A stretch of 32,494 nucleotides of DNA from a virus. This document shows positions 26,352-26,480 of the stretch, piece after piece (within the stretch, counting starts at the first letter, position 1; every line of letters begins with the position of its first letter). Where the stretch lies: positions 1 through 32,494 of the IMG/VR virus record IMGVR_UViG_3300027708_000215, one strand, 5' to 3'. The translations under genes and the position numbers were made by a program. The notes beneath the pieces are model-generated. The model was not told the DNA's origin and searched no databases. It worked only from the letters and a program-made list of their open reading frames with translations.

Positions 26352-26480
26352 CAATGGGCGAGAAAGCCGCAAAATTACCCAATTACTGCATCCTACATTG
26401 ACGGCTTAACGCCCTAAATAGGGTGGGCTACTAACATTCCGTGACGGATGTATGCAAGCATCCAATGTTTTCGCCCATTG
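26352..26480. ncRNA. Candidate structured RNA: ten-base stem with three inner stems
   Basis: CAATGGGCGA (26352-26361) pairs exactly with TCGCCCATTG (26471-26480). Inside: AAGCCG/CGGCTT (26364-26369 with 26402-26407), CCCT/AGGG or GCCC/GGGC (26411-26428), and AACATT/AATGTT (26433-26438 with 26464-26469) extended by GGATGT/GCATCC. The fold is thus a four-way junction of 129 bases. The T-G pair in the last stem would favour the + strand, while the flanking genes are transcribed from the - strand, so the strand is open. No known class recognised. Confidence 0.5.

Follow-up and report, generated by a model that had tools for sequence, protein, structure and literature searches.

A pseudoknotted phage RNA related to the rhizobial Atu_At1 class and an adjoining hairpin that probably represses an exonuclease gene

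The window analyzed here (the whole stretch of 32,494 nt) is a virus sequence recorded in IMG/VR, and its genes include terminase, portal and Erf-like ones. For a region flanked by an exonuclease gene (26548-27276, minus strand) and a small gene (25925-26170, minus strand), the first-pass annotation had proposed a 129-base RNA folded into a four-way junction, closed by a perfect ten-base stem and tentatively read from the plus strand. The question raised by this locus is therefore what RNA, if any, is encoded there, on which strand, and with what probable role. No conserved coding was seen in the region, in agreement with the annotation, and a non-coding structured RNA was indeed found; its fold, ends and strand proved to be other than those proposed. 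The following features were distinguished:

26548..27276, minus: exonuclease gene (PHROG 298 exonuclease; PD-(D/E)XK-like, slightly below the Pfam cut-off)
27280..27288, minus: exonuclease RBS, AAGGGGAAA, proposed to pair with the M1 loop (exact complement over 9 nt; duplex -13.0 kcal/mol)
26487..26544, minus: M1, branched hairpin placed 3 nt after the exonuclease stop codon
26424..26477, minus: M2, optional hairpin closed by the stem TGGGC/GCCCA, which is followed by an internal loop (GAAA ... AGTA)
26327..26417, minus: the core, a 91-nt pseudoknotted RNA, distant relative of RF02496 Atu_At1 (alignment, pair counts and covariance-model matches)
26411-26414/26329-26332, minus: core helix A
26401-26407/26364-26370, minus: core helix B (pseudoknot)
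26394-26397/26333-26336, minus: core helix C
26385-26389/26341-26345, minus: core helix E
26377-26381/26355-26359, minus: core helix D
26184..26255, minus: M4, terminator-like hairpin AGCAAGTCA/TGACTTGCT, then a T run (stem covaries, 13 distinct sequences)

M4 adjoins the RBS of the next gene, immediately before that gene, and in many relatives a small gene takes its place. A short hairpin (TAGGG-TTTGT-CCTA; 26293-26310, minus), located after the core, also recurs among many relatives.

The inverted repeat behind the junction model is exact: CAATGGGCGA (26352-26361) is the reverse complement of TCGCCCATTG (26471-26480), and the resulting 10-bp stem closes the minimum-free-energy fold on both strands (-42.6 kcal/mol each; z -3.48 for plus and -2.70 for minus). 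The stem had been called unlikely by chance, which was not borne out, since the window holds five inverted pairs of exact 10-mers no more than 150 nt apart, vs. 7.8 on average for 100 windows simulated from an order-1 Markov model. Pairs with at least six G+C occur once in the window vs. 0.69 expected, and at least one was present in 35 of the 100 simulated windows. Related phages break the stem: its arms make 3-10 of 10 pairs in 48 distinct rows (including five false picks, recognized by eye, inside the exonuclease gene: L053, L074, L096, L147 and L217), with 10/10 in the window phage only and 9/10 in one other phage. Each arm has a different covarying partner. On the minus strand, TCGCCCATTG (the right arm) contains D' of the pseudoknot and pairs with D, while CAATGGGCGA (the left arm) forms the 5' strand of the local hairpin M2. 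The strand assignment, for which a single wobble had been taken to favor plus, was likewise reversed: the minus-strand reading gives 62 G-U cells vs. 1 A-C cell (25 pairs, 87 relatives), which places the RNA on the minus strand of the window, the same as the exonuclease.

The core fold nests A, C, E and D inside one another; a fifth helix, B, crosses these four by pairing the A-C linker with the D loop. The 87 distinct phage cores align gap-free over 91 columns, with 97.7% of 2262 cells paired and two-sided changes in 15 of 26 pairs. Cells with two-sided changes number 180 vs. 56.8 in shuffles (0/500 shuffles reach the observed value); this shuffle test takes no account of relatedness, whereas slid-structure controls, which retain it, are only 30-47% paired. 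Helix B is paired in 100% of cells, with two-sided changes in 5/7 pairs. The invariance of helix E in the 87-sequence set reflects the search pattern, which prescribed its sequence; in loci found without the pattern constraint helix E varies with compensation (GCAGC/GCTGC, GTAGT/ACTAC); when divergent members were added, two-sided changes were seen in 18/26 core pairs, those of helix E among them. A covariance model of the phage cores (R1), built from relatives that include a record of the same phage (L002), scored the window core at 111.8 bits. Rows left out were a chance pattern match (L095) and copies of the window phage (L001, L082 and L083); partial matches (L277 and L281) were not used, and the 93-nt core of L229 was kept outside the phage-core alignments.

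The competing view, that the four-way junction is the functional fold in the window phage, has thermodynamics on its side. It is the minimum-energy fold (-44.7 kcal/mol, vs. -34.8 kcal/mol for the conserved nested fold without B), and helix B would add up to about -9.5 kcal/mol to the conserved fold, pseudoknot penalty not counted. Energy alone thus favors the junction in the window phage, and the case for the conserved fold rests on comparison; given a repeat at chance level that is lost in relatives and whose two arms covary with other partners, we regard a functional junction as extremely unlikely.

The core is widespread in exonuclease-carrying phages. Of 80 loci with a related exonuclease, 77 were not cut off, and 71 of these have a near-invariant core behind that gene. 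The six near relatives lacking it do not carry it elsewhere in their records either, and the core is therefore dispensable. In two loci (L060 and L062) an ORF is inserted ahead of the core; it lies between the exonuclease and M1 and is, by eye, HNH endonuclease-like. By pattern scan, at least 120 stretches of environmental viral DNA contain the core, which follows an exonuclease or SprT-like gene or stands alone. Among 118 new viral loci, the exonuclease (33-100% identity) lies upstream on the same strand in 102. The remaining 16 comprise (i) nine loci behind a SprT-like gene (Pfam PF10263 checked on two proteins from those nine loci), (ii) one locus behind another ORF (L164), (iii) the chance match L095, (iv) three loci too close to a contig end for the upstream gene to be judged (L097, L148 and L183), and (v) two with neither an exonuclease nor a SprT-like gene ahead of the core (L182 and L197). 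Three additional distant loci of the SprT type were found. Of 16 records, 11 carry the core, each in a single copy, and its position varies: behind stop codons, alone, or 3-58 nt ahead of a gene.

A SprT-like gene occurs in 26/37 records, including 23/27 core-bearing exonuclease-phage records, and in 0/5 unrelated controls. As an obligate partner of the core it was rejected, since it was not found in L257 and L229. The window phage has a SprT-like gene of its own (31489-31842, minus; PF10263, 30.4 bits), located away from the core. In the divergent exonuclease group (e.g., L090, L115 and L146), promoter-like TTGCAT or TTGACA ... TAAACT hexamers were noticed by eye behind the core, with an inverted repeat (GTTAAG-N4-CTTAA; likely an operator, also by eye) between them.

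Outside environmental viruses, 84,980 bacterial and archaeal genomes gave 11 pattern matches, about the chance expectation, scoring at most 22 bits with R1. An R1 scan matched 0/274 genomes of one class, a draw that held no positive control, so that the result shows little. In isolate phages, neither the region nor the core had a match beyond chance-like short pieces. The literature search, whose coverage did not extend to a 2017 study of 224 candidate RNAs, gave no title or shown abstract on this phage RNA.

Within the window, Rfam reported at gathering score only RF02932 (Betaproteobacteria-1 RNA; 29094-29217, plus, 95.9 bits), situated elsewhere, between the leftward and rightward gene blocks, and nothing at the core. 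RF02932 is also present in phage locus L087, so that phages carry this named family of bacterial sRNAs. Below the threshold, RF02496 (Atu_At1) matched 5/14 records at 12.8-16.3 bits; such matches lie on the cores and are full-length (16.3 bits in the window, 21.4 bits in L257). L263 has no weak match, and the phage cores, at 12.8-21.4 bits, fall far short of the RF02496 gathering score of 60 bits.

Atu_At1 copies from rhizobial plasmids were aligned (14 sequences; L280 left out). They contain helices A, C, E and D, one extra hairpin, and a crossing helix B with the variants AACCGGA/TCCGGTT, AACCGGG/CCCGGTT and AACCGAA/TTCGGTT. The alignment is 94.8% paired, with two-sided change in 17/31 pairs (0/500 shuffles on four measures, 9/500 on a fifth); for helix B the values are 96.9% and 4/7 pairs. 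A second covariance model (R2), built from these 14 sequences alone and without helix B, was run on 26 phage sources (274 kb). All of its 18 matches lie on cores and on the core strand, with none elsewhere (best E 5e-4; in the window, 26326-26416, minus). R2 missed 8/26 phage cores and aligned the other 18 end to end, with the same nesting of A, C, E and D as the Rfam consensus. In the reverse direction, R1 barely detects Atu_At1 (best 9.2 bits, 3/5 loci). The RF02496 structure line contains A, C, E, D and the extra hairpin, with a local 5' hairpin in place of pseudoknot B, which is present between the A-C linker and the D loop in both the phage cores and Atu_At1. Comparison of sequences establishes how the core folds, the strand it lies on, its pseudoknot and its kinship with Atu_At1: the core is a phage branch, or a distant relative, of the Atu_At1 small-RNA class.

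One member of this class coincides with a published transcript. The Agrobacterium C58 copy (NC_003064.2:55163-55268, minus) corresponds to pAT_55271R, reported as a RACE-mapped RNA running from 55271 to 55154, 118 nt by sequencing and ~140 nt in the Northern blot (PMC3738593). The RPKM values presented there are 45 (log), 866 (stationary), 3597 (AB medium) and 877 (induced AB) without TEX, and 105, 717, 3728 and 1042, respectively, with TEX (PMC3738593). A class member is therefore a real, regulated transcript, and its mapped start lies 3 nt upstream of the Atu_At1 match on the helix-A side. The C58 RNA ends ~44 nt ahead of ligD; the same place is occupied by ligD in A. vitis and by xth in Sinorhizobium B11, and in Rhizobium BG4 a Ku gene is located ~1 kb from the Atu_At1 copy. 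At the other annotated rhizobial loci no repair gene lies directly behind Atu_At1, and one copy overlaps a gene annotated as an oxidoreductase. The association with repair genes thus concerns 3/11 annotated rhizobial loci in incomplete PLSDB tables (L267, L269, L270 and L278 have no gene table), and we treat the DNA-repair neighborhood as a lead only.

Two hairpins separate the core from the exonuclease gene. M2 is present in some relatives, and its closing stem takes 11 forms in 43 usable rows (e.g., TGGGC/GCCCA, TGACC/GGTCA, TGAGG/CCTCA and TGGGT/ACCCA); these rows were chosen for local pairing, so that the variety of pairs is the evidence. The GAAA ... AGTA internal loop is one that we take to be loop-E-like. 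In L152, a tRNA-Asn gene (3241-3316, minus) separates the M2 hairpin from the core, as though RNA genes used this gap as a landing site.

M1 carries in its loop the sequence UUUCCCCUUU (26518-26527), complementary to the Shine-Dalgarno site of the exonuclease, and its outer and inner stems covary while the loop stays UUUCCCCUUU-like (28 distinct sequences). The exonuclease RBS contains AGGGG in 76/76 distinct near relatives and the M1 loop contains CCCCTT in 73/76, most of which share the same RBS and loop letters. Co-changes were found in two divergent phages, L155, where TCGGGGGAA occurs with TTCCCCCGA, and L165 (TAGGGGG with CCCCCTA). L087 has the same RBS as L155, and no other RBS listed for L155 and L087 has this changed form. 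The summed match length of RBS and loop is 558 vs. 528.6 in shuffles (0/2000; 61 rows, relatedness uncontrolled); five rows without CCCC were left out of this test, and in L140 and L121 M2 strands were picked wrongly. In L150, the loop TATCCCC fits the RBS GGGGATA, but ten other rows with the same loop have GGGGAA, not GGGGAT, which is evidence against a tight match there. In the far exonuclease group (46 rows, start codons uncertain), AGGGG is found in one RBS and CCCCTT in no loop. Further 9-nt complements of the M1 loop are found in the window at 28604 (minus) and 30192 (plus). The possibility of a general anti-SD sponge was rejected, the exonuclease site being the only listed one that fits the changed loop in L155 and L087. 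M1 would thus be a module separate from the core, whose CCCC loop pairs with the Shine-Dalgarno site of its own mRNA, and the co-changes suggest that this pairing lowers exonuclease translation. Such 3'-UTR autorepression, resembling that of icaR, is probable on the present sequence data. To our knowledge, 5'-3' UTR self-regulation is known from few bacterial mRNAs.

Taken together, we consider it reasonably probable that the minus strand encodes a self-contained phage RNA of the Atu_At1 class and that the adjoining M1 separately represses the exonuclease through the Shine-Dalgarno site of that gene. The core itself most likely acts as a self-contained structured sRNA. It may be a portable RNA, either transcribed on its own, or processed out of the exonuclease mRNA, or retained as the tail of that mRNA; in L197 and L257, hexamers judged promoter-like by eye would place the start at helix A. 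Conserved unpaired bases inside the knot make binding of a protein or ligand likelier than open base pairing, and the core may therefore act through such a bound partner. The neighboring genes (exonuclease, SprT-like protease and, on three rhizobial plasmids, ligD or xth) hint at DNA repair or recombination. More speculatively, Atu_At1-class RNAs, common to rhizobial plasmids and lake phages, might bind and control a DNA-processing or repair factor, through which phages would steer host or phage DNA repair while an M1-type hairpin makes the exonuclease self-limiting; this broader scheme is possible but doubtful.

Other roles for the core were weighed against the self-contained sRNA. A riboswitch-like role in cis, as leader or attenuator of the downstream gene, would suit the Atu_At1 copies directly upstream of ligD (A. 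fabrum and A. vitis plasmids) and xth (Sinorhizobium B11), the cores 25 and 58 nt ahead of an ORF in L197 and L257, and the five consecutive T found within 20 nt past helix A' in 56/131 distinct phage cores. However, L110, L131, L172 and L264 have no co-oriented ORF of at least 45 codons within 472, 130, 478 and 571 nt, respectively, the L229 core is followed by a gene that by eye appears convergent, several rhizobial copies have no adjacent annotated co-oriented gene, and in exonuclease phages the spacing from the core to the next gene is very variable, so a leader is unlikely. Helix A begins at, or at most 9 nt past, the stop codon of SprT-like genes, and this, together with the 102/118 loci in which the core follows the exonuclease, would agree with a 3'-end element that stabilizes or retro-regulates the upstream mRNA in the manner of lambda sib and yields no free RNA. 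Against such an element stand the stand-alone copies of L197 and L257 with their promoter-like sequences and the stand-alone C58 transcript, and we judge it improbable as well.

A self-cleaving ribozyme is a still weaker candidate and very improbable. The compact pseudoknot, the conserved unpaired bases and the several genomic positions in phages would fit one, yet no Rfam 15 ribozyme-family covariance model matched up to E 10, and the C58 relative keeps its signal after TEX (a result still compatible with a 5'-OH end) and has its start 3 nt upstream of helix A, like an ordinary transcript. A group I intron, a stop-codon readthrough signal and a CsrA decoy were dropped on sequence grounds, support for them being wanting.

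The preferred reading, a self-contained sRNA beside a separate repressor hairpin, ties an orphan, experimentally detected bacterial sRNA to a large set of phages, and this tie provides many natural variants for functional tests. The Atu_At1 class gains a pseudoknot that is missing from its Rfam entry, and M1 offers a putative comparative case of 5'-3' UTR self-regulation in phages.

Three known systems invite comparison. Lambda sib is an RNase III site that acts in retroregulation; the likeness drawn here is that of an RNA structure behind a phage recombination gene. In the icaR mRNA of S. aureus, a CCCC-containing 3'-UTR motif pairs with its own Shine-Dalgarno site (PMC3868564). The exonuclease phages share with icaR a 3'-UTR motif complementary to the gene's own SD, and differ in that theirs occupies the loop of a covarying hairpin immediately behind the stop codon, with the pairing deduced from sequence. 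The closest counterpart is Atu_At1. Both RNAs have the helix order A, B, C, E, D, a length of ~90-110 nt and a mostly free-standing position; both have GUYAA before and within B, a GGAU-like C-E linker, AA before D, UUUU before B' and UUUC after B' or at its end in the D loop, and a CAA-like E'-C' linker. They differ in the D'-E' stretch (8 nt in phage cores vs. ~20 nt with a hairpin in Atu_At1) and in setting, phage cores lying mostly behind exonuclease or SprT-like genes; the C58 copy of Atu_At1 has a mapped transcript, whereas the phage copies are represented here by their genomic sequences.
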